From a virus: a stretch of 64,000 nucleotides of DNA. A program made the position numbers and the translations under genes. Positions 8,301 to 64,000 of this stretch are shown piece after piece. Position 1 is the first letter of the stretch, and every line of letters starts with the position of its first letter. Location of the stretch: positions 104,091-168,090 of the IMG/VR virus record IMGVR_UViG_3300027852_000001. One strand, 5' to 3'. The notes below the pieces were generated by a model that made no database searches, was not told where the DNA came from, and worked only from the letters and a program-made list of their open reading frames with translations.

Positions 8301-8663
8301 AGGTCTAGATCAAACGGTAAATATGTTATTGGGGGACCGAGACAGTTTGATTATGGTACTGTTTGTCCATATTGTAATGGTGATGGAATTTTGAAGGAAA
8401 ACGTAGAATTGTGTATAAAATGTTTGATAGATTGGAACCCAAAAGAAACGACTAATGAAGAAATTTCTGTTTATGATGGGTCAGAAATTATTAAAATTAA
8501 AACTTTAATCACCAATGCCAAAGACTTAAAGAGAGCTAAGGTTGCTTTGGTTGATCGTCAAGTTGCTAATATTGTTAAATATGAGGCCAAGCTTATTAGT
8601 GGTCCTTATCCGTTAGGAATAAGAGAAGATAGATATTGTGTTAGTTTTTGGAGGACCATATAA
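5382..8663 (+). CDS. Giant fibre protein: collar-like His-rich modules, 34 LFIxG repeats and a C-terminal zinc domain
   Basis: 1093 residues in three parts. (1) About 1-440: three tail-collar-like modules with His-x-His clusters (GHSHSLEDHTHTSETHVH at 52-69; HTHTASSDHKHEEGAHSHS; HTHSSSHGHV) and a QWEICDGSGGTTDLS element like the 'WxxCDGxxGTPDL' of collar domains. In fibres such His pairs coordinate metal ions along a trimer axis. (2) About 444-911: 34 repeats of a unit ending LFIxG, spaced about 14-16 residues, joined by Ser/Thr/Gly linkers. (3) About 920-1093: a domain with Cys pairs CPNC (965-968) and CPYC (995-998) that is clearly homologous to the whole of the next gene. Likely a receptor-binding or surface fibre anchored through its ends. 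The ATG start is one base after the preceding stop region. Confidence 0.75.
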   Translation: MPLQFDNNFRLIWIHDESGVSGIPAGFLRDNQYDGRSLQGSTSGQIDGGDGGHSHSLEDHTHTSETHVHYISATSVTASNTLSVTAALWYTNYQCPHATHSHTSSASAPASIDYASSGAGNTNSASGIYPAHVTAIIIKPTGTVSSIPSGVVAFTDSDSAPDNFEIASGINNYPDLSGLFVIGASSGSDAGQVNVASTGHTHTASSDHKHEEGAHSHSPVDCGYSYTTFDTYIGYSLPGYALSKHHTTALATTTSGDGYTTESGITTDSGGAEPAYTKLLGVQTTGSTTIPSGLIFGYVGLPENLDTDQWEICDGSGGTTDLSNTQIKITTNISDIGNTDDSKNLHTHSSSHGHVRPSGSHTHTVTVLHKRNQIGRDPSFPTDTSFRGGTAHTHTWTCTSMSGGAVIDADVTTSSGDHRGPWRSMIWVKSKEFTSASEYTSSGNLFIGGCEQVNVSGDLFIDGYGADNSSCDLFVWGINDQTASGDLYIIGSSESSTSGDLFIEGYIQEFDDIYLYTKGPDGTNSSSNLFIYGGNGLPLYIAGSSPEPSSGNIPLFTQGSEDENNSHELFIYGYESLAASGDLFIEGFDSKTTSVDLFIDSHVSTSSSIDLFINGRTLDYSDIPLYINGPTQNSSSVSLFVYGGNNLPLYVGGIADISSSGDLFVGGFDAETLSTDLFIEGSQEETKFCNLFIGGLDNLSSSGNLFVGGVGSGLEPLLPLFIYGYTSESGTIDLFIGGHSGSTSEIDLFIGGKNTIDTPSLPLFIAGYAYNNNSIDLFINSYSGSYDSTELFIAGQEIWSSSGDLYTGGHTGASSSGNLFIGGYHLTSGDTNLYVHGYSATTSSVDLFIHGCSSFSGSNDLYIGGYNIYSSSGDLFIEGLGTSSENDNLSLFIEGLGLVSVSGYVNLFVNGYEPLTPSVCPLPDPTASFQIPLSVIDVYQSRIDALINQVGKNVVLRFDPNITKCPNCGWDSIRSRSNGKYVIGGPRQFDYGTVCPYCNGDGILKENVELCIKCLIDWNPKETTNEEISVYDGSEIIKIKTLITNAKDLKRAKVALVDRQVANIVKYEAKLISGPYPLGIREDRYCVSFWRTI
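6711..8114 (+). repeat. LFIxG protein-repeat array (34 units)
   Basis: Thirty-four units of the pattern [DNPS]-L-[FY]-[IVT]-x-G counted in the fibre gene from NLFIGG (6711) to NLFVNG (8097-8114), usually preceded by SSSG or TSGD. The repeat is conserved at protein level while codons vary, so this is an old or selected array and not a recent DNA duplication. The same unit occurs in the genes at 28114 and 2077. Confidence 0.9.
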
Positions 8664-9250
8664 TGGAAAGTGGAGTAGTCAATATTTTTATCAATGGTGA
8701 ACCAGAACCAGTATCTTCTACATGCCCGACCCTTGATCCAGAAGCTTCTATACAAATTACTGATGATTTAATTGGTATATATCAGTCAAGAATAGATGCT
8801 TTAATAAATCAATTAGGAAAACATGTACTACTTGAGTTTGCTCCAATAAAAACTCAATGCACTAATTGTGGGTATGATTCTATGAGAAATAGATCTGATG
8901 GAATATATACACAAGGGGGACCGAGACCATTTGCTCGTGGAAGAAAATGTCCCCATTGTAAGGGATCTGGGATATTATTGGAAGAGGTCAATGAATGTAT
9001 TCATGCTTTATTAAAATGGAATCCAAAAAATCCAGAAGAATACGGTATATCTGCTTCGAAACACAAAGGAATTGTTAGAATAAAAACATATTTACATCAT
9101 ATGCCTAGTTTAATGAGAGCAGAAACGGCTATTACGAATTATGACATAAGAGCTATGCTGACTTTAAAAGTAAAGAAGATAAAAGGTCCAATTCCTGTCG
9201 GATTAAGAGAGGACAGGTATTGTATTAGTTTTTGGGAATTAATTTCCTAA
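8663..9250 (+). CDS. Zinc-ribbon virion protein, paralogue of the fibre C-terminal domain (neck candidate)
   Basis: 195 residues from ATG 8663; this start overlaps the fibre stop by one base (TAATG) and is served by GGAGGA at 8650-8655. It aligns along its whole length with the last 170 residues of the upstream fibre: IYQSRIDALINQLGKHV, Cys pairs CTNC and CPHC, a GGPRPF turn, and a conserved end GLREDRYCISFWE. The paired CxxC motifs suggest a structural zinc. Short phage proteins of this kind are found near neck genes, so a head-tail joining or fibre-anchoring role is plausible. The tandem arrangement of a fused and a free copy is unusual. Confidence 0.7.
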   Translation: MESGVVNIFINGEPEPVSSTCPTLDPEASIQITDDLIGIYQSRIDALINQLGKHVLLEFAPIKTQCTNCGYDSMRNRSDGIYTQGGPRPFARGRKCPHCKGSGILLEEVNECIHALLKWNPKNPEEYGISASKHKGIVRIKTYLHHMPSLMRAETAITNYDIRAMLTLKVKKIKGPIPVGLREDRYCISFWELIS

Positions 9251-9262
9251 AAGGGGAATATT

Positions 9263-10468
9263 GTGGATATGGATTTTATAACTGGTGATGAATACAAATT
9301 TTATAATGGTTACATATACGGAGGTGTGTGTGTATCTGTAACGAATGATACTTATGCAATATTATACCAAACTAATGTTATAACTAGACCTACATTTGTT
9401 ATGGCTGCTGTCAGGAATGGATTAGAGCTATCATTTTCTTCTGCAAAAAATTTATCTTATTTTTCCAACTATGAAGCCAATAATGATCAATATTCTGCAC
9501 TTGGGATGTGTTTGTGTGGACCGAATAATGTTATGACTAAATGGGTTGATGAGTCCACAGGAAAAGCGTTATATAGGATAGCATCATTATCTGGGACTTC
9601 CACTCCCGATGCTGGTGAGATATATTCTGAATTATTATACGAAGGCGGCATGTATGGAGATCCTTGTTCGATAGTTATGGATAGCGATTCTGTTAGTGGA
9701 ATAATTTTATGTTGTCACGAAGAACACGCTTCTGTTTTAACTATAAACGGAACAGAGATTATTGATCAGTCTGATTATACTCAAATTTTTGAAAACAATA
9801 ATATAGTAAATACCACAGAACATATAGGAAGTGGTTTGGTGTTATCATTCTCAAAAGGTGATACACCACTTGGAGAAACATATTCCATTTCCGTAGACGG
9901 AACAACAGTTACTAAAGAGGTGTTAAATTCTTTCGTTGCAAATCCTGCAGATCCAGATTACCTTAGTTCTTGTTTGTTACATGATGATCAAACGTGCGGA
10001 TTAGTATGGAGAGATGCAAACAACAGTAATAAAGGTAATATCTGTCATGTTTCTGTTTCTGAAACTACTCCAATTTATGGTACACCCCAAATATGGTCTA
10101 GTGGACAAATTAGATGCCCAAGTATTTTCAGTTATGGGGATGACAATATTGGTGTTGTTTATATAGATACAGAAGATAGTGATAAACTGAAGATTATTAG
10201 AGGAACATTATCAGGGACTGTATTTACTTTTCCAGAAGATCCAATTGTTGTCCATGATGCTGCAACAACTCATGTTCATAGACCAGCATTACAAGATGAT
10301 CGTTATTTAATGATTTCTTATAGAGATGCAGATGATTCGAACAAAGGAAAAGCTGTTATCGTGGATGTTGTTGGATCTCCATCCAATAACATGTCTGCTA
10401 CTGTTGGAGGACATCAAATATTTGCTAACATCTGGGTTCCAGAGACATGGAGGGTATATCGTGGCTAA
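9263..10468 (+). CDS. Beta-propeller-like virion protein
   Basis: 401 residues from GTG 9263, preceded by AAGGGG at 9251-9256. It is all-beta with blade-like repeats such as GLVWRDANNSNKGNICHV and ISYRDADDSNKGKAVIV and VVYIDTEDSDKLKII, spaced about 50-60 residues. This is typical of a six- or seven-bladed propeller. No catalytic residues stand out. The end overlaps the next gene's GTG start by eight bases. Surface exposure and ligand binding are likely by family analogy; the exact role is unknown. Confidence 0.65.
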   Translation: MDMDFITGDEYKFYNGYIYGGVCVSVTNDTYAILYQTNVITRPTFVMAAVRNGLELSFSSAKNLSYFSNYEANNDQYSALGMCLCGPNNVMTKWVDESTGKALYRIASLSGTSTPDAGEIYSELLYEGGMYGDPCSIVMDSDSVSGIILCCHEEHASVLTINGTEIIDQSDYTQIFENNNIVNTTEHIGSGLVLSFSKGDTPLGETYSISVDGTTVTKEVLNSFVANPADPDYLSSCLLHDDQTCGLVWRDANNSNKGNICHVSVSETTPIYGTPQIWSSGQIRCPSIFSYGDDNIGVVYIDTEDSDKLKIIRGTLSGTVFTFPEDPIVVHDAATTHVHRPALQDDRYLMISYRDADDSNKGKAVIVDVVGSPSNNMSATVGGHQIFANIWVPETWRVYRG

Positions 10469-51676: not shown

Positions 51677-53389
51677 TTATATCACCGTTACTTTAACTTC
51701 ATTTGTTTCGTTATTTGACATAGCAGAACATCTCTTGATTTCAAATTCATTTGCTTGATCAACAAGCTGGTTAAAATGTTCTACCATCATTTTTCTATTG
51801 AATGGGATTCTCCTGTCTCCAGATGTTCTTGATCCACTATTTAGTGCCTTAAGCCATTCTCCAGAAAACTGTGTATTAAGCATGTCTGGTCTACCCCAGA
51901 ATGTCCCTATAACCCAATTAACAAATTCAACATTGTTCATATTGTCTTCTGGTGGTTTTGGGCTAGGCTTTCTTATTGTTGGTACGGTATTAAACCACGT
52001 CTTTTTGTTGTCATATATATTGGTTTCTCTGAGAACCTCACCCCAAATAGCAGCAGTTCTTTCCCAACCCCTTCTCCTCATTTTCTCGTCTTGCTTATAT
52101 GTGTCTACTAACTCTTCCATATATGCTCTGGTTTGTTTATTTTTCTCATTTCGTGTTTCTTCTGATAATTTCAAGAACTTATCTAATTTGTTAACAAAAT
52201 CCTTATTGCTTGGTAGCGCACGCTTTTGTTCTGTCTCTATTATTGCTTCCCAGAAAAATCTCTCGACATCTATAGGTATCGATCCCGGACATTTTAAGTG
52301 ATCTTGCATAGCAGAATAATCCACGGCGGCTACTGGGACACCACAAGCTTGTGCTTCTGCGCATGGCATACCGAATCCTTCACAGATAGAATATTGTACG
52401 TAGAGATCAAATGATTTCATTATGTCTGCTAGGACATTTCTTGGACAAGAATGGTTTGCATTTGGTGGATGTGCAGCCAATACTCCACACTTACGACAAA
52501 CCATCATTTCTTCTGAAAAGAATGCCGGATAAGCTGTTTGGCAATTGCTACACAAATATGTCATAATAACTTTATTGCCAACATTAAATTCTTTTATTGC
52601 TTTCCCAATATCATATCCAACATCTGGGTAGCTAGTATGTAAATACAAGAATGTTCTTTTGGTTAGATCTGTGTGTCCTTTAGAATTTGACCTATTTATC
52701 CACATACTGAATGCTTCTATCAAGTCGTAGTATAACTTTCTTTTTTGGTTTCTCATTACTGTGCCAACAATCAAGGAATTTGGATCAATTCCCAATCTTC
52801 TTTTGTGGTCTTTTTTGTCTATTGGAGGAGTAAATACCTCAAGGTCTGCTCCAGGAGAAGCTACGGTAACAAGTTCTGTTCCTTTTCTGCTGGTTTTCTC
52901 TAATAAATTCATTCCATAATCAGAATATGTCAATATACGGTCACACTGACGATATGAATCCAACCATAATTCCCTCTGTGGTTCACCATCTATTGTTGGC
53001 ATCCATATAAATTTAAATTTATTTCTTAGTGGTGATCTTAAAATAAATTCATCCATCCACCAGTCACGAATTCCACAAACTATATCTGGTTTAAAATGAA
53101 GGCAAGTACTTTCGAATCTCCATTCACCAAATTGATTTGTATTTTTTTGACCAGAATATATTCTCATAGCATTTTGGTCTGATCTTGCTGGTGCTGCTGG
53201 ATAAAATTTCCAAGGCACTTGTCCGCATCTTGGGTCATCATCGTGGGCATAACTTCCCAACTCAGCTATTTCGAATTCTCCCGTATCGTACAATCTTTTT
53301 ATTACTTCATTCCAGTACGTACTGAATCCAGTGGCTAAGAAACTAGCTTCACCAACAAATAATATTCGACGTTTTGGTTTATTTTCCAT
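51677..53389 (-). CDS. Glycosyltransferase family 4 with inserted zinc ribbon
   Basis: 570 residues from ATG 53389; the in-frame GTG at 53395 leaves too little space after GGAAG. RILFVGEASFLATGFSTYWNEV is the GT4 N-terminus, LIVGTVMRNQKRKLYYDLIEAF begins the second domain, and SICEGFGMPCAEAQACGVPVAA is the donor site with EAQACG. Between them a zinc-ribbon insert (CSNC at 280-283, CRKC at 298-301) interrupts the second Rossmann domain, an unusual addition. The last 130 residues are a helical extension. Could recognise an acceptor protein. Confidence 0.82.
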   Translation of the reverse strand: MENKPKRRILFVGEASFLATGFSTYWNEVIKRLYDTGEFEIAELGSYAHDDDPRCGQVPWKFYPAAPARSDQNAMRIYSGQKNTNQFGEWRFESTCLHFKPDIVCGIRDWWMDEFILRSPLRNKFKFIWMPTIDGEPQRELWLDSYRQCDRILTYSDYGMNLLEKTSRKGTELVTVASPGADLEVFTPPIDKKDHKRRLGIDPNSLIVGTVMRNQKRKLYYDLIEAFSMWINRSNSKGHTDLTKRTFLYLHTSYPDVGYDIGKAIKEFNVGNKVIMTYLCSNCQTAYPAFFSEEMMVCRKCGVLAAHPPNANHSCPRNVLADIMKSFDLYVQYSICEGFGMPCAEAQACGVPVAAVDYSAMQDHLKCPGSIPIDVERFFWEAIIETEQKRALPSNKDFVNKLDKFLKLSEETRNEKNKQTRAYMEELVDTYKQDEKMRRRGWERTAAIWGEVLRETNIYDNKKTWFNTVPTIRKPSPKPPEDNMNNVEFVNWVIGTFWGRPDMLNTQFSGEWLKALNSGSRTSGDRRIPFNRKMMVEHFNQLVDQANEFEIKRCSAMSNNETNEVKVTVI

Positions 53390-53966
53390 ATCCACTTTCT
53401 TCCAGTTTAGGTCTTAACTTAATAGTTTTTGTATATGTTTGTTTCCTACTAAGTCCTGATTCTATCTTAGCATCACTCAGCAATAAACAAATGAAATCTT
53501 TATCATCTTGTTCCAGTTTGTCTGACGATAAAATATCAGTAAGAACACAAAAAGGTTCGCAACTATCCGATGGTTCACTTGACATCATATGTAGTGAACT
53601 AACCTGGATTAGAGATCTTAAATACACTAGTTGTTTCATGCTGATTTGTAATAAATCGCATATCTCTCTCTCTGTATATTCCTTATTCAACAAAGATTCT
53701 ATTTTGTGTACCCTTCTTTTGATTCTGTATGGCGCTGATACAGCACACATTCCACTTACGGCAGTATCCCTCATTGCCCTAGCTATAGCTACAATAGCAT
53801 AAGCTTTAAAATTGGTTACACGACCCCTTTTGTGGTTTATTTCCAATAATTTCATATGGCCCGCTTGAATATAATCATCGATATCAGCACACCTATTTTT
53901 ATATAGTCTCTCGATTTTTATTGCGAGACACTCTATGAAATTTAATATAGAATCTTCTTCTGTCAT
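53379..53966 (-). CDS. Sigma-70-like transcription factor (late-sigma candidate)
   Basis: 195 residues. The N-terminal 75 residues (LAIKIERLYKNRCADIDDYIQ, then LLEINHKRGRVTNFKAYAIVAI, then ARAMRDTA) resemble region 2 of sigma factors, which contacts core RNA polymerase and the -10 box. Residues about 90-120 (KIESLLNKEYTEREICDLLQIS) look like a helix-turn-helix of region 3/4 type. A C-terminal helical part follows. The size is close to that of T4 gp55 (185 residues), which reads -10-only late promoters. Overlaps the GT gene at 51677. By inference it may recognise the GTGTATAAT sites on the plus strand. Confidence 0.65.
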   Translation of the reverse strand: MTEEDSILNFIECLAIKIERLYKNRCADIDDYIQAGHMKLLEINHKRGRVTNFKAYAIVAIARAMRDTAVSGMCAVSAPYRIKRRVHKIESLLNKEYTEREICDLLQISMKQLVYLRSLIQVSSLHMMSSEPSDSCEPFCVLTDILSSDKLEQDDKDFICLLLSDAKIESGLSRKQTYTKTIKLRPKLEESGYGK

Positions 53967-53975
53967 ACTATAATC

Positions 53976-54404
53976 TTAAAACGGGATATTGTCATCACCA
54001 CCACCATCAGCAACTTCTGCCTCTACTGGAGGACTATCGTCCTTTTTCTTGCTTTTTGTTGTGGTATTTTTTGACTTACTTTTTTCACACTTTTGAAAAT
54101 CCTTAGCTTCAAGTGTATAAGCTACTTTTTTGTTTCCGTCGTCATCTGTCCACGTATCTTGCTTTAGATACCCAGAGACGTACAATAAATCCCCCTTTCC
54201 AATCAATTCCGCCATCCTTACAGCTTTGTTTCCCCAAATTTGACACCTCAAAAATGTTGTTTGTTGGCTGTAACTATCTTCATTCTTTCTCTTAAAGCTC
54301 TTGTTAAAAGCTAGATTAACTGTACATAGATCAAACTCTCCAGCTTTTTTTATTTCTGGATCAGCCGTAGCAACTCCAATTCCATTTACGCTTAATTCAG
54401 CCAT
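53976..54404 (-). CDS. ssb: Single-stranded DNA-binding protein
   Basis: 142 residues. OB-fold with VNGIGVATADPEIKKAG, CTVNLAFNKSFKRKNED, TTFLRCQIWGNKAVRMAELI, GDLLYVSGYLKQDTWTDDDGN and AYTLEAKDFQKCE, all diagnostic of bacterial-type SSB. The disordered Lys/Pro/Glu-rich linker ends in DDNIPF, the acidic tip that recruits replication and repair proteins. AAAGG precedes the ATG and a TATAAT lies about 40 bases upstream. It coats ssDNA in phage replication. Confidence 0.93.
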   Translation of the reverse strand: MAELSVNGIGVATADPEIKKAGEFDLCTVNLAFNKSFKRKNEDSYSQQTTFLRCQIWGNKAVRMAELIGKGDLLYVSGYLKQDTWTDDDGNKKVAYTLEAKDFQKCEKSKSKNTTTKSKKKDDSPPVEAEVADGGGDDNIPF

Positions 54405-54477: not shown

Positions 54478-56826
54478 TTACATAAGTTTTTGTATATTTT
54501 TAACAATAAAACTTCCGTTCTTTTTTTCTCCATAGAGCAAACATATTATATCTTCTTTACACAAACCCCTCAGTGTTTCAAATTCTCCGGGAAAAACTAC
54601 AGCATGATCTATCGAATATGTTGCGTCAGAAACGGTCAAAAAACACATAGGTTGTCCAGGATTTTTCCCTCTTTTGGTTTTTGTGTGTTTCACTGAATCT
54701 ATAATAACACATACTATTATACTTTCATCATTTGGAGATCTAGCAACCTCCAAGCAGGTATGGGTTGATATGTCACGATCCATATCGTCGGCTGGAGAAC
54801 ACGACAGTGAAATTCCAAGAAAATGTTTTTCTGCTGTAGCATTCGCCAAATTTGTATCTCTAATTTCAGAACTAAGTAATTCTACTTTATCAGACATAGC
54901 CCTTCTTCTTGCATCGCTAGCACATGGAGGTTTGGTTACTACGTCCTTATATCCATTATCAATTAGTAATTTTTGTAGTTCGGCCTTTTTCCTACCTTTC
55001 AGTGAGTCTAGCCACATCTCTTTTTCGTCTTGCGACGTATAAACAAAATCACCATCACCGTCTACTATTTTATCAAACGCCTCCATAGCTTGTCCAAGAT
55101 AATTCCTTGAAGCCTCTAGTAATTCTGTCTTCAACATTTGTTTAGTAGTTTTGGTTTTCTTACTCGGTGGATGAGACATTTGAGATAAAACTTCTTTTGA
55201 TGTATTTCCATCTTCTTTCAGCTTATCAAAAAAATACTCACGTTCTTTCGCTGTCAAACCTTTTATTTCAACTTTTTTACCCAAAGAGTCTACGGTTTGT
55301 GTTCCCAATATCGCTTCGAGTTCTCTTACCATCTCACTTCTACCCATACCAAAACAATCACATGCCCCTGATTTGATGAGAGCTATTCCTACATTTCTGT
55401 GAAAATCTGGAACAGAAGCCAAAAAATCATTCCATGTTACTATGGATTGTTGTGATTCTATAATTTTTTCTATAGCAGATGCTCCAACACCTCTTATGTG
55501 GGATAACCCAAATGCAATACTGTTTTTGACACCATCCACTACCTTAAAATTAACATTACCTCTTCTTATATCTGGTTGCAAAACACTTACACCAAACAAT
55601 CTTGCATCCTGAACAAGTCTGTATATCTCATCTTTTGGATCGGTCTTATATCCAGAAAATGTTAAGTATGATGTAAAAAATTCTTTTGGGAAGTGACATT
55701 TTGCCCATGCTGTTTGATATGCTATTAGTCCATAACTAACTGCGTGAGAATTACATGTGATAATATCATCATTTACCACCAGATTATGATTTGGGCCAGT
55801 CATTGTTACGTCCCACGTATCTACTACACCATCAGTAACTATTGACTCAATTTTAACAGTTTGTGCTGGATAGCCCTTTTCTCCTCGTCCAACTATCCCA
55901 CATATATATAAGGAATCTCCAACAGATAATTCTGCTAATGTTTTTTCTCCATTTGGTGTCGGAAATTTATGATTTGACGTAACAGAAATTGTAGATCCAT
56001 TTGCTAGTGTTACTTTAAACACCCTTTTTCTTCCTGCTGGCTGAATATCTTGTACGGTATTTTGACGTACCATTCCATCAGCACACATAGAAAGACCTTT
56101 GCCATAATTACCACTTGTTTTCCATTTTCTTCTTAGTGATTCATGTCCACATTGTTTCGCATAAACAATGTCATTCTTTACACGATACATATGTTCCACT
56201 GTATATTCAGAACCTTTGATGTGTTTACCACCATTGGGTCTTCTTATTACAGTTTCTCCTGAGACACATTTGTTAAAACTATATCTCTGACATTTTTCTA
56301 TCCAACCAAAAATTTCCTCAGCAATTTCTTCATCTATGTTTTTATGGGTTTTTGATCCATTTATAAATTTTTCCTTAATTTTTGCCATAAGCTTCGGATC
56401 TTTTTTTCCAATAGCTTTTCTCAATTCATCAGCACTTTCAGGACTTAATCCAGCTAAATCTGTAGCTATTTTTATGGCTTGTTCTTGATAAACCATACAA
56501 CCATACGTTGGATCTAAGATAAGCTTAAGTGCTGGATGGATGTATGTATTTTTTTTTCTCTTGAATTTTATATCCACATAATCTTGTGTCATCGAAGATT
56601 CAAGGGGTCCGGGCCGTAGAAGTGCAGTTAAAGCAGCAAGCTCTTCTATATTTTTTGCTCGTGTTTTTCTAGCCCAGTCTTGTCCCAAACTTTTTTCAAG
56701 CTGAAATATTCCTATTGTATTACCTGTGGCTAATAACTCCCAAACAGCTGGACAATCAAGAGGAATTTCGTTTATCTTGAAATTGCCTCTTTCGACTTGG
56801 CATTTACATTTTTTGAACTTGATCAT
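54478..56826 (-). CDS. dnaE: DNA polymerase III alpha (DnaE) C-terminal half with mini-intein
   Basis: 782 residues, of which 173 are an intein (residues 187-359). The extein starts in the palm after the catalytic Asp residues: IPLDCPAVWELLATG, GIFQLEKS and LTALLRPGPLESSMT, then fingers (VYQEQAIKIA, LRKAIGKKD), the SFNK / SHAVSYG split by the intein, a helix-hairpin-helix (SHIRGVGASAIEKII) and a C-terminal OB-fold. The PHP domain and the Asp-x-Asp catalytic part are absent, and a stop codon lies immediately upstream in frame. Active polymerase would need a separate N-terminal polypeptide. Whether it lies elsewhere in the genome is unknown. The neighbour is a glycosyltransferase, not the missing half. 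Confidence 0.85.
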   Translation of the reverse strand: MIKFKKCKCQVERGNFKINEIPLDCPAVWELLATGNTIGIFQLEKSLGQDWARKTRAKNIEELAALTALLRPGPLESSMTQDYVDIKFKRKKNTYIHPALKLILDPTYGCMVYQEQAIKIATDLAGLSPESADELRKAIGKKDPKLMAKIKEKFINGSKTHKNIDEEIAEEIFGWIEKCQRYSFNKCVSGETVIRRPNGGKHIKGSEYTVEHMYRVKNDIVYAKQCGHESLRRKWKTSGNYGKGLSMCADGMVRQNTVQDIQPAGRKRVFKVTLANGSTISVTSNHKFPTPNGEKTLAELSVGDSLYICGIVGRGEKGYPAQTVKIESIVTDGVVDTWDVTMTGPNHNLVVNDDIITCNSHAVSYGLIAYQTAWAKCHFPKEFFTSYLTFSGYKTDPKDEIYRLVQDARLFGVSVLQPDIRRGNVNFKVVDGVKNSIAFGLSHIRGVGASAIEKIIESQQSIVTWNDFLASVPDFHRNVGIALIKSGACDCFGMGRSEMVRELEAILGTQTVDSLGKKVEIKGLTAKEREYFFDKLKEDGNTSKEVLSQMSHPPSKKTKTTKQMLKTELLEASRNYLGQAMEAFDKIVDGDGDFVYTSQDEKEMWLDSLKGRKKAELQKLLIDNGYKDVVTKPPCASDARRRAMSDKVELLSSEIRDTNLANATAEKHFLGISLSCSPADDMDRDISTHTCLEVARSPNDESIIVCVIIDSVKHTKTKRGKNPGQPMCFLTVSDATYSIDHAVVFPGEFETLRGLCKEDIICLLYGEKKNGSFIVKNIQKLM
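55750..56268 (-). other. Mini-intein within DnaE
   Basis: 173 codons between SFNK and SHAVSYG. Starts with Cys (CVSGETVI, block A), has TSNH in block B (GSTISVTSNHKFPT), a block F-like VDTWDVTMTGPNHNLVVND, and ends ITCN before Ser+1 (block G). The usual penultimate His is Cys here. No homing endonuclease fits in this length. It should excise and join the exteins. Confidence 0.85.
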
Positions 56827-56866: not shown

Positions 56867-57688
56867 TTAGAAATTTCTATAAATATCGGCGATTTGTTGT
56901 AACATACGTCCGATTACAGGAGACATGTCCGATAACTGTTTGAACAACTGTGTTTCAGTTGCATTAATTATTTCTGTTTTATGGTATTTATAATTTCTTG
57001 CACCTTGTAACCCACGAATACCCCCATGTTCAGCAAGACGAATGTGTGTGCCATGATGATTTGAGGTAGTTAATGACGGCCAATATGTTTCTGATAAATT
57101 ATTCGGTGGTTCCCCAAGGCTTGATTCAACAATCATTTTCAGTAACAGTTGTTCATTGAATCCTTGCTCTGGTAGCTTTATTTCGCCATTTTTTAACATT
57201 TGTCTGTATTTTTTCATAACAGGGAGCATTGCGGCAAACCACTCTCTGGGTTTAATAACGTGTATTCCACATACACGACGTGGTTGTGTTGGGCGTATGA
57301 AATTACTATAAGGTATTTGTAGTTGATTGCAGTGTGCTAAATGTTGATCCATATATGATGGTAGTTCTGAATAAATAGCCATATCAACATCACCTATGGA
57401 CATACAATCATATTGATCGAATGCTGTCTCATATACTAACCATCTCAAACACTTTATCGTAGTAGCATCTGTCGTATCATATTCTTCGAAAGAGTTTTCT
57501 CTTACCTCAAAATTTCCATTCAATAAATCCAGCATAGGACCAATTTTATTACTTATTGTTCCATCTAATAGTACTAATTTATGTGCATGTGGATATGCTA
57601 TGTTCAAAAAATACAAAAACCAAGGAACATACTTCTGGTAAGGTTGATTAGCTACCGTCATAAAACACATTTTACTATTATCAGACAT
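56867..57688 (-). CDS. Glycosyltransferase with DxD motif (GT-A)
   Basis: 273 residues. SIGDVDMAIYS (DVD at 100-102) is a GT-A DxD metal and nucleotide-sugar site. HKLVLLDGTI and YDCMSIGDVDM are neighbouring strands. The C-terminal half includes His/Trp-rich TSNHHGTHIRLAEHGG, likely acceptor or donor contacts. Family resembles GT8/GT6-like enzymes but is not certain. Its start overlaps the stop of the GT-B gene before it by one base. Confidence 0.7.
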   Translation of the reverse strand: MSDNSKMCFMTVANQPYQKYVPWFLYFLNIAYPHAHKLVLLDGTISNKIGPMLDLLNGNFEVRENSFEEYDTTDATTIKCLRWLVYETAFDQYDCMSIGDVDMAIYSELPSYMDQHLAHCNQLQIPYSNFIRPTQPRRVCGIHVIKPREWFAAMLPVMKKYRQMLKNGEIKLPEQGFNEQLLLKMIVESSLGEPPNNLSETYWPSLTTSNHHGTHIRLAEHGGIRGLQGARNYKYHKTEIINATETQLFKQLSDMSPVIGRMLQQIADIYRNF

Positions 57689-58638
57689 TATATCGACACT
57701 CCGACTTCTTTAAGTTGTTTCGTAATATCATTCCACATTGCTTCTGTCATACCACCATCTGGAAGTAGTTGATAATATTCCTCATACAAGTTGTATCCAT
57801 TTTTTGCAATTCTAAGTGTTGCTTGTTCGTCTAAAATAGCTCTTTCACATATTTCCATAAGATTAGATAGATCTGGCAATACATCTAAATAATGTTCATT
57901 TGGAATCATACGATTCAACCATTTAAATTTATCTAAACAACAACTTACAATACAAGACTGCATTCCCATACTTTCAAAATGACGATACGTCAAAACACTA
58001 TTCCCTGGCATACATAATGATAAAAGTGAATTATTAATTGAATTAAGATAAAAATATCTTGGTCGATGACCAACCTCTACCCCAGAAATACATCTATCAG
58101 CACCGGGTTCTTGTCCCACTATACCTCCATGAAACCATGGTTGACTTTTCAAAATATTACAAGCTTTAATGCGTAAGTTTTTTTCTGTATCCAAGTCACC
58201 AGTGGGGAGTCCATAAAAAGATACAATCGGTTTTTTATTGCTGGATGGTTTTTTTAATCCACCAATTAAAAATGGTTGCATAATAATCTGTTTACCAATT
58301 ATACGTCTATCGTAGTCAGAATCATCGTGTGTCCACTGAATTTTAGCAAACGCTGCAGCCTTGTCTATTACTTCGTCAGGCAAACCACGTCCTTCCATCC
58401 GTGTGTTGAATGAACTCCAGTCTCCCAACGACATTAGTATTATCTGCCCGCGAAATGCTATAAGTTCTTCAATTGTCTGATCGCTTATCTTATGTGGATG
58501 CATACAATCTACCAACCAAATATCTGCGTCTGAAATATTTTGATTAGTAAATAGATGTCCGTGCCTAGCTAGTGTTGCAGCTATTGGCCCCATTCTTAGT
58601 GGTGTCGATATGTGTACTATAGTCGCTTTTATTTTCAT
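57688..58638 (-). CDS. Exostosin/GT-B-like glycosyltransferase
   Basis: 316 residues. LCMPGNSVLTYRHFESMGMQSCIVSC resembles the 'LCPPGxGLDTxRxWEAL' donor-binding segment of exostosin (GT47) and related GT-B enzymes. A Rossmann-like start (KIKATIVHISTPLRMG) and helical C-terminus follow. It would add a sugar with retention or inversion depending on subfamily, which I cannot decide. Tightly packed with neighbours on both sides. Confidence 0.65.
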   Translation of the reverse strand: MKIKATIVHISTPLRMGPIAATLARHGHLFTNQNISDADIWLVDCMHPHKISDQTIEELIAFRGQIILMSLGDWSSFNTRMEGRGLPDEVIDKAAAFAKIQWTHDDSDYDRRIIGKQIIMQPFLIGGLKKPSSNKKPIVSFYGLPTGDLDTEKNLRIKACNILKSQPWFHGGIVGQEPGADRCISGVEVGHRPRYFYLNSINNSLLSLCMPGNSVLTYRHFESMGMQSCIVSCCLDKFKWLNRMIPNEHYLDVLPDLSNLMEICERAILDEQATLRIAKNGYNLYEEYYQLLPDGGMTEAMWNDITKQLKEVGVSI

Positions 58639-59384
58639 TAGTTGCTCATTGCTTTTCTGAATAATTGTCCTAATAATGTTGGACTATCTAGTAATTCTTG
58701 TTTACCCATTGTTAAAAATGGACTATTACATTGTTTAAACATTTCGTGAAAAAGCATACATCCAAATGAATCTGGAATACAACATTTATCAATAGATTCT
58801 TTCCCTGCAAAACGAAATGCTTCCCAAGATGGAATTGGCATCAGGAAACGGTAGTCTAAGTGGTGGTATCTTTTTCTTCTAATTGCTTGACGAATTGTTC
58901 CTGGCCCCAATGATCCCCATTGAAAGATATGACCTGGAGGATGCATACTCAAGGCGTGCTCAATTATTGAAACTGCTTTTGTTATAACTGGTCCGTTTTT
59001 CAAAGAAAGTAAAAATCCACTCTCCGGTTGTCCGTAGTTAAGAGTAGGTGATGCAGTTGCTACCAAATCTATACCATCTTTAAGTAAGTCTAACATAGGT
59101 TTAAGACTTTGAAACAAAATTAAATCACTATCTAGCCAAATTCCACCAAGTTCTTTTAGTAATGTATATCTGAGAAAATTTGATTTATTGTTAATTTGCG
59201 CAATACTAAAAAAACTTTCAGATATATCTGGTAAAAAATGTTTTACATTTGCTGTTGTAACAAGATTGATATTAAAATCTTCTCCACAATGTTTTGCTAT
59301 AGACTCCCAACAAAGTTCTATATATGGAGGTGGTGAGGTTTTACCTGGAGGATTATCCCAATATAAAAAGATATTAGGTTTCAT
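58638..59384 (-). CDS. GT32-type glycosyltransferase
   Basis: 248 residues. NKSNFLRYTLLKELGGIWLDSDL is the conserved GT32 'SDxxRyxxLxxxGGIYxDxD' region, with Asp-85 and Asp-87 as the DxD. KPNIFLYWDNPPG is the N-terminal strand. Such enzymes add mannose or galactose-type sugars to capsule or lipopolysaccharide-like chains. Strong ribosome binding site AAGGAAA before ATG 59384. Confidence 0.82.
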   Translation of the reverse strand: MKPNIFLYWDNPPGKTSPPPYIELCWESIAKHCGEDFNINLVTTANVKHFLPDISESFFSIAQINNKSNFLRYTLLKELGGIWLDSDLILFQSLKPMLDLLKDGIDLVATASPTLNYGQPESGFLLSLKNGPVITKAVSIIEHALSMHPPGHIFQWGSLGPGTIRQAIRRKRYHHLDYRFLMPIPSWEAFRFAGKESIDKCCIPDSFGCMLFHEMFKQCNSPFLTMGKQELLDSPTLLGQLFRKAMSN

Positions 59385-59399
59385 AATTTTATTTCCTTT

Positions 59400-59975
59400 T
59401 TATCGTACGACAGAAAATAGAATAGTATGTCTGCCGTCACCCATATAAGTGTGTAAGTTTGTTATTCCCATATCTTTTATACGTTTTTGTAGTTCAGCTT
59501 CTTTGTGTTTCTGTGATGGACTTTTGCGAACATCGAAATCAATAAACACATCACAAACTTTACCATATTCTCCTGTGTCTATTAGATCCAAAATCACCTC
59601 ACACTCACTACCCTCGCAATTTAGTTTCAGGAATATTTCATCATCAATGGAAATATGTTCTTTGAACCAATCGGAAGCTTTTATAAATTGACATTTTGTT
59701 ATCCGTGGTTCTGGATTACATGTTGTTTGGTAGTCAGAATGGACACTTCCACCCTGACTCCCTTCGTTGTGTAGATCCATTTCACATGTGCTAGACCACA
59801 ATCCTTGTTTTACAATAGTAACTCTGTCATTGTTTCCGAATTTACCCTCCAACGCTTTGTGGCATATTGGAGATGGTTCAAAACCTATTATATGATCAAT
59901 TTTGAATCTTGGTCTCAACAACAATTCTATTGTTTGTCCAACGTGAGCACCTACGTCTAGAAAAATACGACTCAT
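59400..59975 (-). CDS. FkbM-type methyltransferase
   Basis: 191 residues from ATG 59975 (GGAGAAA upstream); a longer start lies inside the upstream gene. FLDVGAHVGQTIELLL is the SAM-binding motif I; IIGFEPSPICHKALEG is motif II with the Glu of the ribose; EIFLKLNCEGSECEVI is the FkbM 'LKIDxEGxE' signature, here with Asn-Cys. It probably O-methylates a sugar of the glycan. Overlaps no neighbour but is only one base from the upstream gene. Confidence 0.82.
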   Translation of the reverse strand: MSRIFLDVGAHVGQTIELLLRPRFKIDHIIGFEPSPICHKALEGKFGNNDRVTIVKQGLWSSTCEMDLHNEGSQGGSVHSDYQTTCNPEPRITKCQFIKASDWFKEHISIDDEIFLKLNCEGSECEVILDLIDTGEYGKVCDVFIDFDVRKSPSQKHKEAELQKRIKDMGITNLHTYMGDGRHTILFSVVR

Positions 59976-59976
59976 A

Positions 59977-60819
59977 CTATTTTCTCCAATCATAATATAC
60001 AAAACGTGTTAGGAAGCAGTCATTGTGAATGTGAAAAGCAAATTTCAATTTTTGTAAAAGTCCGGTTACTTTTAGTTGCTTCAAAGCAAATTCATGATTA
60101 GATGGAACACCCTCTCTTAAAAATTTGCCTATATTATCATATAGATCCCCGAATTTATCCATTAATTCTGTCCCACCAAAAAACCAGTAATCTGCTAATG
60201 CAGGGTAGTGAGGTGTGTGTGGATGTCCTATATGAATGTGTTGTAAGTCTTTGTTTTCTTTCTTGTCCCATCCTTTTAGAAACCAATCTTCGTGTCTAAT
60301 TCCTTGTCCATTTGGCATTTTCATTACACACCAATTGGATGCATAGAAATTTTCAGGATCAAATTGATCAAAGTGTACATCTGTCATCCATGCAACATCG
60401 AATCGACCAATCATTACCATGTCATATTTAAATCCGTTTGCTTCTTCATATTCTCTTTTTAGTTTCATGCATTGCTGTATGCTATACCATCTGGCAATAG
60501 TTATTTGTGTTTTTGATGTAATTCCATCTGGGTAATTTTTATCAGTTTTAGCACCAGAAACATCAAATTTTGGATCTGGTTCGAATACTGCTGCTTTTGG
60601 ATTATATGCATTTATCAGGTCTTGTTTAGATTCTACGCTTGGCGTGTGGATAAATACATCAACATCATTATGCTCAAAAATATGTTTTTTGTAATGTTCT
60701 AGTCCTCTTCTCCATTCAACAGGAGTTCTCTTTCCTGTCGTGCCATTCCACATTTGTCCTCCGACTATTTTCTTCCCTTCATGAAGAGCCATTCCATTTA
60801 AGCATAGTGCAATCCTCAT
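59977..60819 (-). CDS. Glycosyltransferase-like protein (GT-A, RFD motif)
   Basis: 280 residues with AAGGGGGT before ATG 60819, the strongest initiation site of the operon. YDMVMIGRFDVAW holds an Arg-Phe-Asp (139-141) in place of DxD, as in several phage and viral GT-A families. HPHTPHYPALADYWFFGG is the acceptor-side loop. No known family is certain. Placed between FkbM and TylF methyltransferases. Confidence 0.65.
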   Translation of the reverse strand: MRIALCLNGMALHEGKKIVGGQMWNGTTGKRTPVEWRRGLEHYKKHIFEHNDVDVFIHTPSVESKQDLINAYNPKAAVFEPDPKFDVSGAKTDKNYPDGITSKTQITIARWYSIQQCMKLKREYEEANGFKYDMVMIGRFDVAWMTDVHFDQFDPENFYASNWCVMKMPNGQGIRHEDWFLKGWDKKENKDLQHIHIGHPHTPHYPALADYWFFGGTELMDKFGDLYDNIGKFLREGVPSNHEFALKQLKVTGLLQKLKFAFHIHNDCFLTRFVYYDWRK

Positions 60820-60831
60820 AAATCAACCCCC

Positions 60832-61398
60832 TTATTCGATTACTCTGATTATTTTTCGCTCTTCTCCGGAAGTCGTTTTGTCTGTAAAAGGTACTACCTC
60901 GCATTTTCTGTCAAATTCTATTACCCACTCATTATATGCTTTTTGTTCGTGATCATCATATTTTTCATCATGTTTATAAAACCACTCATCAAATACAATT
61001 ATAGTTCCTGGAACTATGTGGTCATTGAGAGACCATAACACTTCTTTTGCAGAACTATACAAATCAGAATCTATGTGTAGAAGAGCAATTGGTTCAGCTA
61101 TTTTTAAATATTCAGGTAATGTGTCTGTGAACCATCCTGGATAAAATTTTACACCTTTGACATCTGGTATCACTCCATTTGTAGAAAAATATTCCGGCGG
61201 AACAACAACAACTCCATCCTTGTCTATCCATGCTTCTGGTAAACCAACAAATGAATCAAATCCGAATATATCAAATGATTCGCCAAGCGTTTGTCTTATT
61301 GTTCGTATTGTTTCACCCCGACAAACCCCGAATTCAAGAACATGTGAGTATTTATCGTCTAACAACGTTAGTCCATGTTGTAAACTAGAGTGTATCAT
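60832..61398 (-). CDS. TylF/MycF-type O-methyltransferase
   Basis: 188 residues from ATG 61398 with AAAGG upstream; the longer frame to 61506 lies inside the sulfotransferase gene. VLEFGVCRGETIRTI is the SAM-binding motif, FDIFGFDSFVGLPE and LLHIDSDLYSS are the metal and sugar-hydroxyl Asp motifs typical of macrocin O-methyltransferases. It methylates a sugar hydroxyl using Mg2+. Together with the FkbM gene it indicates at least two methylated positions. Confidence 0.82.
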   Translation of the reverse strand: MIHSSLQHGLTLLDDKYSHVLEFGVCRGETIRTIRQTLGESFDIFGFDSFVGLPEAWIDKDGVVVVPPEYFSTNGVIPDVKGVKFYPGWFTDTLPEYLKIAEPIALLHIDSDLYSSAKEVLWSLNDHIVPGTIIVFDEWFYKHDEKYDDHEQKAYNEWVIEFDRKCEVVPFTDKTTSGEERKIIRVIE

Positions 61399-62059
61399 AC
61401 AAAAACCTTTCTCTGTGTTGTTCAAATAATATATCAAAACTTTTAAGAAATTCCATATCTTCGTTTGAGACATCAAATGGTTTATTGTCCGGAGGATGCC
61501 ATCCAACTGTTTTTTCTATTTTTATTTCCTCATCTGATTTTCTTTTCCACCCCAATAATTTTTGTATTTTAAGGAGTGGTATTTCTTGGTTTTCTTTCAT
61601 TTGTTCATATGTTATGTTTAGGTCTGAATATGCTGTCCAAAACATATTTGTTAGTAACCACAATTCAGGTGGGGTCGTTGGCTGATCTTGTATCCAACTT
61701 CTTCGTGCTTGTGGTACTAATTTGTCATCTAGAAAAATTTTACAATTACCAATAATTCTAGGCATTTTTTTATATGGTGTTCTGATAAATGTTGAAAAAT
61801 CATTTAATTTAATTCCATTTCTTTCCCTCATTCTAAAGACTGACATCAAAACTGGTTGTATTTTACGACTACAATGAATTATGTGTGCTCTAGCGAATCG
61901 TTCTCTTATGTCGGCTTCGAACTTGTGAGTACCAAACATATTCATATAATCTTTGTATGGTGTTTGAAAGTTTTCAAGAATGGTTCTTAACACCCAATGT
62001 GTTCCACTTCGAGGATGTGTTACAAGTCTTAATCTGTCTTTTTTATTTTTTTTATTCAT
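61385..62059 (-). CDS. Sulfotransferase
   Basis: 224 residues. VTHPRSGTHWVL (13-24) is the P-loop-like 5'-phosphosulfate binding motif, and HIIHCSRKIQPVLMSVFRM contains the 3'-phosphate-binding 'R-x-x-x-x-x-x-S' strand and helix. It would transfer sulfate from PAPS to a glycan hydroxyl. It overlaps the fusion gene stop by eight bases and the TylF gene by 14. Sulfated glycan synthesis in a phage is unusual. Confidence 0.78.
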   Translation of the reverse strand: MNKKNKKDRLRLVTHPRSGTHWVLRTILENFQTPYKDYMNMFGTHKFEADIRERFARAHIIHCSRKIQPVLMSVFRMRERNGIKLNDFSTFIRTPYKKMPRIIGNCKIFLDDKLVPQARRSWIQDQPTTPPELWLLTNMFWTAYSDLNITYEQMKENQEIPLLKIQKLLGWKRKSDEEIKIEKTVGWHPPDNKPFDVSNEDMEFLKSFDILFEQHRERFLYDTL

Positions 62060-63620
62060 TTAAGTATTCCGTCACATTAAATAACATTATTTTTCCTAAA
62101 TGAAATAACATTTCCGCATATGGTTGATGGTGTAGTGCTGCTATATTTAGATAAATTAGTGCTGTCAGGGTTATAACTTTATGGTAATCATAATGATTTC
62201 TTACAATATATCTTTTCAACAATACTTCACAATCAATTAATATATGTCTTCGTAATAAATCAAAGTTGACAGTTGTTCCATTGATATCTATGCTGTATAA
62301 ATTTTTATTGATTATTCCGTGAGAGACAATAAGTCCGTGCCATAATTTTGCAAAATCATAATAAATATCTCCGTAATCACTAAGGTCTCCAAAATTTTGT
62401 CTCCAATCTAGTAAACAAAAATCATTACCAGTATCTATAATGTTTTCAAAATGTAAATCTCCGTGAAATCTTACTGGTATACCGGTTGACATCCATACCC
62501 AATCTATTTTGTCTAATAAGTCTCCTATTGGAGGAACATCTACTCCGTTGATACATTGAGCAGTATCTGTGTATCCAAATCTATCAAAATATTCTTTTAC
62601 TCTTGCAAATGTTTTGTCTCTATAAAAACGTAGATATGCTTCTTGAATATCGGATGATAACATTTTGCGACTATTCCATAGCGGCTCTATCCAAGAAATA
62701 AAATCTTTGAATCTAGATACAGTAATTGTGTTAGAAAGAACTCTACCACCAATTTTTCTGTAACAATACATATTTGGTGTGTAGTTTTCGATTGCCGGTA
62801 CATATCCTTCTAATGATTTTGCTCTTTCAACTCTTTGTGAAATAAAATTTTTGTCAGTAGAAAATTTAATAACACGACTATTACAAAACCAAATATGTTC
62901 TTGTTCTTTTGGAAGAATGTTTGGGTCATTTTCTCCAGCAAAAGCTTTGTTTGCACTAGCAAGTGCTTCTACAGTTCCAGTATCAAACCACGTAAATTGA
63001 CGTCCTTTAACAATATTTTCTCCAACCATCTCAGCTAAAGCAAATGATTCTCCTTGATTTGTAGTTCCTTTGCTAATAGCTTCATCCATTTTGTCCCAGA
63101 ACGTTTTATAATCATGAATCCCACAAATTCCAATATAAGCTTTTGCTTCTGTGTGAACTCCTTTTTCTCCCAAATCTTTAACCACAGTATCGTCCCATGA
63201 ATCTGCAACAACAGAACGATAATCATGACCAGCGCGAATATCTGCGTATCCAATCCAATTATGATCTGGTGTTGGGATATCTTCAGTTACAATTGCATCA
63301 TTAGTAAAAAAGATGAATGGACATTGCAACATATTCTTGTAATCACATAAGTCAGATGTTAGTCCATTTCTTCTCGCCCAAATAAATGTGAATTTTCTTT
63401 CAGGATATGCCAAGGTAAGAAACTCTTTAACCAACTCTCCCTTATGTCCCAAATCTATAATAAGTTCTATTTCTGGTGAAAATTTTTCTACTATATAAGA
63501 TATAATTGGACGATTAGCTACTGGAACCAATGTTTTGTTTACATGATCACAGTGATTACCCAAACGCGAACCAATTCCAGCTGTTGGAATTAATACTTTA
63601 TATTTTATATTATCTGCCAT
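62052..63620 (-). CDS. Sugar nucleotidyltransferase-phosphotransferase fusion (LicC/LicA-like)
   Basis: 522 residues from ATG 63620 (GAAG six bases upstream; an ATG at 63626 is also possible). Residues about 5-230 form a nucleotidyltransferase (LIPTAGIGSRLG, NKTLVPVANRPIISYI, FIFFTNDAIV), which would make an activated sugar or CDP-choline-like donor. Residues about 260-520 are an aminoglycoside-phosphotransferase or choline-kinase-like domain with VRFHGDLHFENII (catalytic HGDxHxxN) and CLLDWRQNFGD (metal-binding Asp). A two-step kinase plus nucleotidyl transferase in one chain suits donor synthesis for the cluster. The substrate is unknown. Confidence 0.78.
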   Translation of the reverse strand: MADNIKYKVLIPTAGIGSRLGNHCDHVNKTLVPVANRPIISYIVEKFSPEIELIIDLGHKGELVKEFLTLAYPERKFTFIWARRNGLTSDLCDYKNMLQCPFIFFTNDAIVTEDIPTPDHNWIGYADIRAGHDYRSVVADSWDDTVVKDLGEKGVHTEAKAYIGICGIHDYKTFWDKMDEAISKGTTNQGESFALAEMVGENIVKGRQFTWFDTGTVEALASANKAFAGENDPNILPKEQEHIWFCNSRVIKFSTDKNFISQRVERAKSLEGYVPAIENYTPNMYCYRKIGGRVLSNTITVSRFKDFISWIEPLWNSRKMLSSDIQEAYLRFYRDKTFARVKEYFDRFGYTDTAQCINGVDVPPIGDLLDKIDWVWMSTGIPVRFHGDLHFENIIDTGNDFCLLDWRQNFGDLSDYGDIYYDFAKLWHGLIVSHGIINKNLYSIDINGTTVNFDLLRRHILIDCEVLLKRYIVRNHYDYHKVITLTALIYLNIAALHHQPYAEMLFHLGKIMLFNVTEYLNE

Positions 63621-63933
63621 AATCATCTTCAACTCGTATAACGTCATCTAATTCTGGAGTAGATGACTCTAAATACGTAGCATCTTCTTTCCCTTCCATT
63701 CTATGGATTTCTCCTGGTAAAATTGTACAAAAATTTCCAGGCTTCATCATTATTATTTTACCATCCTTGTGTAATAATAATATACCACTTAGTACATATA
63801 TTGTTTCTGTTTTTTGTTCATGATGTTGTAGACTACATCGTTTTCCTTTTTTCATATGTAATTTTTTAACTACATATTTATCATTAACTTCAAGAATTTC
63901 TTCCTTACCCCATGGCTTATCTACTGTTTTCAT
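63610..63933 (-). CDS. Cupin, mannose-6-phosphate isomerase-type
   Basis: 107 residues. WGKEEILEVNDKYVVKKLHMKKG, RCSLQHHEQKTETIYVLSGI and HKDGKIIMMKPGNFCTILPGEIHRME match the C-terminal cupin of mannose-6-phosphate isomerase or guanylyltransferase (ManC-type). The metal site is H-x-H-E with a later His. It would interconvert or bind a phosphorylated sugar for the pathway. It overlaps the fusion gene start by 11 bases and is overlapped by ATGA with the gene upstream. Confidence 0.8.
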   Translation of the reverse strand: MKTVDKPWGKEEILEVNDKYVVKKLHMKKGKRCSLQHHEQKTETIYVLSGILLLHKDGKIIMMKPGNFCTILPGEIHRMEGKEDATYLESSTPELDDVIRVEDDYGR

Positions 63934-64000
63934 AACATACCCCCAAAAGCTAATGAATAATGATCTATTACTTTCATGATTTCACATATAATGCTTTCCC
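63930..64000 (-). CDS. Partial gene running off the window (C-terminus)
   Basis: The minus strand is open from the window edge to TGA at 63932-63930, ending ...KVIDHYSLAFGGML. It overlaps the cupin start codon by ATGA, the spacing used throughout this operon. Only 23 codons are visible, too few to identify the family. Confidence 0.45.
   Translation of the reverse strand, partial: ESIICEIMKVIDHYSLAFGGML

Follow-up and report, generated by a model that had tools for sequence, protein, structure and literature searches.

Replicases of the C family are commonly regarded as single-polypeptide enzymes. Cyanobacterial DnaE is encoded by two genes with a split intein, whose site lies in the finger region, and a split alpha subunit of DNA polymerase III (Pol III) in jumbo phages has reportedly been studied by Iyer et al. 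2021. Three papers describe related systems. In group 2.2 jumbo phages, Pol III alpha is divided between two proteins of distant genes; this version is a minimal catalytic module that lacks the remaining Pol III domains and occurs alongside a family B polymerase (PMC7824862); the joining of the cyanobacterial split DnaE is mentioned in another (PMC3919608); and phage vB_PaeM_MIJ3 has a split PolB with an intein (PMC6892783). Split polymerases are already known in phages, the minimal Pol III alpha of jumbo phages among them (PMC7824862). Here we describe a 64,000-nucleotide stretch (the window), the final 64 kb of the 168,090-bp virus record IMGVR_UViG_3300027852_000001, in which the dnaE gene at 54478-56826 encodes the C-terminal half (C-half) of Pol III alpha. 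The N-terminal half (N-half) is a separate gene of the same record. With a probability of roughly 0.86, we infer that the two form a two-polypeptide Pol III alpha, that is, a non-covalent heterodimer that would rebuild the alpha active site and be active.

Two halves of DnaE in one virus record

The C-half is an open reading frame (ORF) on the minus strand with an ATG start; the plus-strand reading of 54478-56826 contains 37 stops. An earlier note on this DNA had described DnaE here as a C-terminal half only, with a stop codon in frame before its ATG. Both statements hold: the frame directly 5' of the ATG reads ...YF-stop-V-stop-stop-D before MIKF, and the Pfam search of the 782-aa (amino acid) protein returned fingers and HHH_6 domains and neither PHP nor palm. 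The features of the gene are as follows.

54478-56826, minus strand: DnaE C-half (fingers, HhH, OB fold), 782 aa including the intein (ORF, Pfam, profile and structure of the relative L007)
56347-56790, minus strand: DNA_pol3_finger, C-half residues 13-160 (Pfam PF17657, E 4.1e-47)
55750-56268, minus strand: mini-intein of 173 aa between FNK and SHA, C-half residues 187-359, reading CVSGETV...IITCN with Ser as the next residue (ORF reading, alignment, structure matches)
55333-55593, minus strand: HHH_6, C-half residues 412-498 (Pfam PF14579, E 1.6e-14)
54481-54780, minus strand: OB-fold region, approximately C-half residues 683-782 (alignment with L007 residues 550-649 and structure alignment of the L007 model)

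Minus the intein, the C-half is 609 aa long, and the C-half of the viral locus L007 is 69% identical to it. The earlier note had proposed that the polymerase is split, with the remaining half elsewhere in the genome, and had suggested searching for a DnaE N-terminal fragment with PHP and the Asp motif. Such a fragment was found in the same record, outside the window: a 792-aa ORF at C1:1412-3790 of the record, minus strand, with a TTG start and the C-terminal residues ...VKFDFLGVVALDKLWEIQNLVNEQAEEKTTSKELINAT. Pfam assigned it PHP (PF02811, E 3.5e-41) and palm (DNA_pol3_alpha, PF07733, E 3.7e-32 and 7.7e-30). The catalytic motifs SLPDIDTD and VKFDFLG are both present, the aspartates of PDIDTD and KFD(F/V/L)LG are invariant across the N-half alignment, and all three catalytic aspartates sit in the N-half. 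Its nine PHP ligands (HHDHEHCDH) are identical to those of Taq. The DnaE of this record is therefore read as two separate ORFs, not one polypeptide. We also observed a non-intein insertion of ~110 aa in the palm of this N-half (L005), just before SLPDIDTD; the window's clade, including L016, has it, and L010 does not.

The position of the N-half relative to the C-half follows from the ends of the record.

63874-64000, no strand: direct repeat of 127 bp, an exact copy of the first 127 bases of the record (sequence comparison)

Because its first 127 bases recur exactly at its end, the 168-kb record would close into a circle. Read across this repeat, both halves are on one strand, with the N-half upstream and 8,458 bp between them. 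An assembly break hiding the N-terminus, one of the objections raised earlier, is ruled out by the terminal repeat together with the complete neighbouring genes (the upstream gene at 56867-57688 is intact). A complete second polymerase, which had also been raised, is ruled out as well, as Pfam searches of the record gave no other DnaE, no PolA and no PolB (PF00136). By these searches, the pair of halves is the only recognisable DNA-copying enzyme of the virus.

Conservation of the split

We collected loci in four scans of viral_contigs, two of which were limited to the 80 best of 453 and of 558 relatives, respectively; L008, identical to L007, was excluded ahead of the census. Both halves were present in 162 of the 167 loci read, the remaining five showing the N-half only (three) or the C-half only (two). 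In every one of the 162, the halves are separate ORFs with N upstream of C, and none is fused. Dropping 15 repeat loci of the same contigs reduced these loci to 147 contigs. In the window's clade, five N-halves and five C-halves gave proportions of nonsynonymous differences (pN) of 0.10-0.23 versus synonymous ones (pS) of 0.72-0.97, mostly saturated; both halves are under strong purifying selection. Because the split is shared by a large uncultured viral group, the enzyme looks like an old, functional one in two parts, not a broken one.

The census also bears on whether the C-half is kept by itself to bind DNA or the clamp, with no link to any N-half. Such a role would suit the HhH and OB regions, which are present; it does not suit the fingers domain, which ranks among the most conserved parts in the C-half alignment, or the presence of an N-half both in this record and at 162 of the 164 loci that have a C-half (for the other two, L019 and L020, no N-half match was found in the stretch examined). 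We consider this explanation very improbable. The similar suggestion in the earlier note, a fragment retained for its clamp-binding or OB region, is not needed with the N-half present in the record.

The same ORF reading was applied to two sets of controls. Among the best 80 of 551 DnaE relatives in genome contigs, 77 were fused, and the three split ones came from two Lokiarchaeota metagenome-assembled genomes (MAGs) and one Flavobacteriales MAG. Eight of the ten named-phage records examined were fused, including that of Bacillus phage Jayan, which is annotated as two polymerase ORFs and cut elsewhere. The two split records were Rossellomorea phage phiT1 and Alicyclobacillus phage KKP_3916 (L184, OQ846916); the DnaE of the latter is in four pieces, every one annotated as a hypothetical protein. 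Detection is not biased toward calling splits, because the same reading calls most of the genome-contig and phage controls fused. Since L099 and L100, though not L098, also have the exonuclease gene described below, the split genome-bin contigs may be viral. For the two binned as Lokiarchaeota (L098 and L099), the split DnaE would belong to mis-binned phage contigs or to Asgard viruses.

The C-half tree was built from 74 of 146 eligible rows, namely 47 of 70 split, 20 of 69 fused genome-contig and 7 of 7 fused phage rows. One clade of 46 split rows was recovered with a Shimodaira-Hasegawa-like approximate likelihood ratio (SH-aLRT) support of 99, with phiT1 outside it, and the split label needs two changes in the N-half tree and in the C-half tree. 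The approximately unbiased (AU) test did not reject phiT1 inside the split clade (p 0.82), and a tree forcing all split rows into one clade scored 21 log units higher. One or two origins of the split are both possible, because the AU test does not reject the single clade, and phiT1 as an independent split is not secured. A counterpoint to the single clade is that the best other GenBank matches of phiT1 (36% identity for the C-half and up to 42.5% for the N-half) include fused phage enzymes; they are fused where examined (L178, L181).

A gene in pieces with cargo genes between them could also be a split gene in decay, in a virus that depends on the host polymerase. The clade of 46 split sequences and the intact catalytic residues speak against decay, and the strong purifying selection on both halves and the conservation of the split in 162/162 viral loci are the grounds on which we rejected it, leaving it almost no chance of being right.

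The position of the cut

The N-half profile spans residues 3-639 of Taq alpha, and the C-half profile spans 643-965. Against E. coli alpha, the C-half profile covers 583-907 plus a weak OB stretch at 981-1054. Structures were predicted separately for the two halves of L007, with predicted local distance difference test (pLDDT) scores of 86.2 (N) and 83.7 (C). The N-half model aligned to residues 1-575 of E. coli alpha (5fku_A) with Z 33.5 and a root-mean-square deviation (rmsd) of 2.7 over 562 residues. The C-half model aligned to residues 579-1074 with Z 23.1 and rmsd 8.2 over 449 residues, and to 5lew with rmsd 2.9 over 318 residues. Because the models align to 1-575 and 579-1074, they place the cut in the palm-fingers link, shortly past the strand bearing the third catalytic Asp, between the equivalents of E. 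coli alpha 575 and 579. The C-terminal domain of E. coli alpha is tau-binding; it appears to be absent from the phage enzyme, because the structural match stops at residue 1074 of 1160.

Across the 147 contigs, no N-half tail extends more than 23 aa, and no C-half head more than 22 aa, beyond the homologous part. These extensions are too short to hold a split intein where palm and fingers are separated. Post-translational joining of the halves by a split intein, in the style of cyanobacterial DnaE, had to be weighed because inteins are frequent in these genes: they occur in the C-half between FNK and SHA (window, L016) and between RPGPLE and S (L013, L018), and in the N-half (L018, L036, L046). 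However, the intein of the window is whole and lies inside the C-half, not at the break, and the short tails and heads refute such joining at the sequence level; we regard it as highly unlikely. It is for this lack of room that we propose the heterodimer to be non-covalent.

The space between the halves

In the window and its relatives, the halves are separated by other genes.

56867-63933, minus strand: window part of the gene block in the gap, with glycosyltransferase-, methyltransferase- and sulfotransferase-like, APH-like and unassigned genes (ORFs, Pfam)

The block runs on at C1:57-1422 of the record. Matches over the Pfam cut-off were to TylF- and FkbM-type methyltransferases, a capsular-synthesis/glycosyltransferase gene and an APH-like gene, and those below it were GatZ-like, sulfotransferase and DUF7796 matches. 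A search of the record for an RNase_T exonuclease gave no match. Among the relatives, an exonuclease ORF lies between the halves in 152 of the 162 loci (139 of 147 contigs); the ten that lack one make up the clade of the window, where the gap holds 0.9-9.1 kb of other genes. In the 62 unique exonuclease sequences of the first census, D10, E12, D119, H185 and D190 are invariant throughout, which we take to be the DEDDh set. The exonuclease of L010 matches PF00929 and the PHROG 'DNA polymerase exonuclease subunit'. Overall, both the content and the length of the gap vary among loci, the latter from 603 to 9,124 bp.

This variation, in a gap that was not scanned for RNA families, and the complete genes inside it, including the conserved DEDDh exonuclease in 152/162 loci, argue against joining at the RNA level, in which an intron or a bypass across the gap would yield one protein. 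Other breaks in relatives do look intron-like (L056, L184), and we nevertheless find such joining scarcely credible here.

We then compared the exonuclease with the PHP metal site. Among 75 unique N-half rows, nine have eroded PHP sites, and all nine have the exonuclease. The eight rows that have a complete PHP region and are known to be without an exonuclease between the halves (window, L007, L013, L014, L016, L017, L018 and L023) keep all nine PHP ligands, as do L011, L012 and L015, whose contigs end too soon to judge the exonuclease. Rows truncated or gapped at the first ligands (L009, L021 and some exonuclease rows) were left out of the count. We did not find exonuclease and PHP to be cleanly exchanged for one another, since most exonuclease-bearing rows also keep PHP; the relation is a one-way pattern only. 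Gain and loss of the exonuclease are both possible: L098, the sister of the window's clade in the C-half tree (support 85), also shows no exonuclease match, and the other two split control contigs, L099 and L100, have one.

PHP proofreads in Thermus. In most relatives, proofreading would fall to the DEDDh exonuclease whose gene separates the halves, and in the window's clade the intact PHP metal site may serve instead. A wider proposal is that this large uncultured lineage replicates with an obligate heterodimer as its Pol III alpha, and that the space between the two essential genes is a maintained exchange locus, in which one branch carries the exonuclease and the other swaps surface-glycan cargo, with the conserved polymerase halves on either side, while PHP proofreads. 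We offer it tentatively and think it rather doubtful.

Inteins in the window and in relatives

The earlier note had seen 173 intein residues between SFNK and SHAVSYG, which are now located exactly. The intein resembles solved inteins, with the DnaB intein 1mi8 as the best match (E 2e-6); the DnaE intein 7qil also matches (E 2e-4). Cys1, TSNH in block B, the C-terminal Asn and the +1 Ser (TCN followed by S) were read directly. The penultimate residue of an intein is usually His, with known exceptions; it is Cys in the window intein, in its L016 homologue and in the same-site intein of the fecal phage clone MT835601. The L016 homologue, also between FNK and SHA, is 50.8% identical (pN 0.28, pS 0.79), and the same-site intein in a DnaE of MT835601 (29% identity) ends TCN before S. 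In L007, L009 and L010, which have no intein, the alignment is continuous across FNK-SHA. Because L016 and MT835601 have same-site inteins and these three loci have none, the window intein is a patchy optional insert, secondary to the split and independent of it.

Several other interruptions were observed in relatives. A second C-half site, between LRPGPLE and S, carries inteins with an HNH-like part (L018 18169-19500, L013 17490-18700), and L018 has an intein of ~372 aa in the PHP domain of its N-half (7977-9450). In L036 (7028-8452), L046 (7022-8550) and L035, an N-half intein (C...HN) between GPGRG and SAAG is in two parts in separate ORFs, and an extra, differently framed ORF lies between the two; this would make DnaE a set of three polypeptides, two of which are joined by trans-splicing. 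In L056 (7328-8094; also L066, L067 and L077), the palm is broken by ~0.77 kb, possibly an intron, with an ORF containing a LAGLIDADG-like stretch.

A proposed heterodimeric replicase

In the heterodimer that we propose, the N-half would supply PHP and the palm with the three catalytic aspartates, and the C-half would supply the fingers, HhH and OB fold once the cis-intein had excised itself. The halves would fold separately and dock via the native palm-fingers interface to make one active site, and the heterodimer would act as the phage replicase with the host clamp and clamp loader.

Several points weigh against this proposal. Association of the halves is predicted from sequence and structural models. 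The models are of L007, not of the window proteins, with each half predicted on its own, and the full-length L007 C-half superposes loosely (rmsd 8.2 over 449 residues). The census used split C-halves as queries and twice kept the best 80, which means that it describes one lineage, not all phages. A search of the record for beta-clamp domain 3 (PF02768) gave no match.

Primase, DnaB, RecA-like and single-strand binding protein (SSB) genes lie nearby.

53976-54404, minus strand: single-strand binding protein, directly downstream of the C-half (PF00436, E 3.3e-17)

Downstream of SSB lies a glycosyltransferase group 1 gene (51677-53395), and L007 and L009 have similar post-SSB ORFs. A PHROGs search with six structural-region window proteins gave no match.

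With a stable natural cut between palm and fingers, one can test directly whether these modules, when not covalently linked, still assemble and close on DNA, and mapping exonuclease presence against PHP-site erosion offers a natural test of which domain proofreads. The split is also a warning that a phage DnaE gene labelled as a fragment may be a genuine half. Phage phiT1, being an isolate, is a tractable model for the palm-fingers split.

Comparison with known systems

Compared with bacterial DnaE (E. coli, Taq and M. tuberculosis structures), the phage halves have PHP, palm, fingers, HhH and OB in the same order and keep the catalytic and PHP metal residues. They differ in that the phage alpha comes from two genes and the bacterial one from a single gene, in that the structural match ends at E. 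coli 1074/1160, and in the ~110-aa insertion before PDIDTD in the window's clade.

With the split alpha of jumbo phages, the likeness is an alpha divided over two distant genes; unlike it, the window phage has PHP, HhH and OB, and PF00136 PolB was not found in the record. Cyanobacterial split DnaE likewise has two genes, and the two intein sites lie close together in the finger region. Its cut point is different, however, and the phage break has no intein halves and would involve no trans-splicing there. Phage vB_PaeM_MIJ3 likewise combines a split replicase with an intein; that polymerase is of family B and is divided by a split intein that has an HNH endonuclease.

A further likeness is phiT1 (L180, PV767480), where gp20 is the N-half and gp18 the C-half, each annotated 'DNA polymerase III subunit alpha', with the same palm-fingers cut and a 49-aa ORF between them; no exonuclease match was found in the stretch examined. 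It differs in being drawn outside the split clade, subject to the AU result given above. In the open-access literature searched, we found no account of a cut between palm and fingers that has an exonuclease gene in the space between the halves. Nor did that literature yield a full PHP-containing alpha that is cut at the palm-fingers link, is the only identified polymerase of its record and has either an exonuclease gene or variable cargo between its halves.
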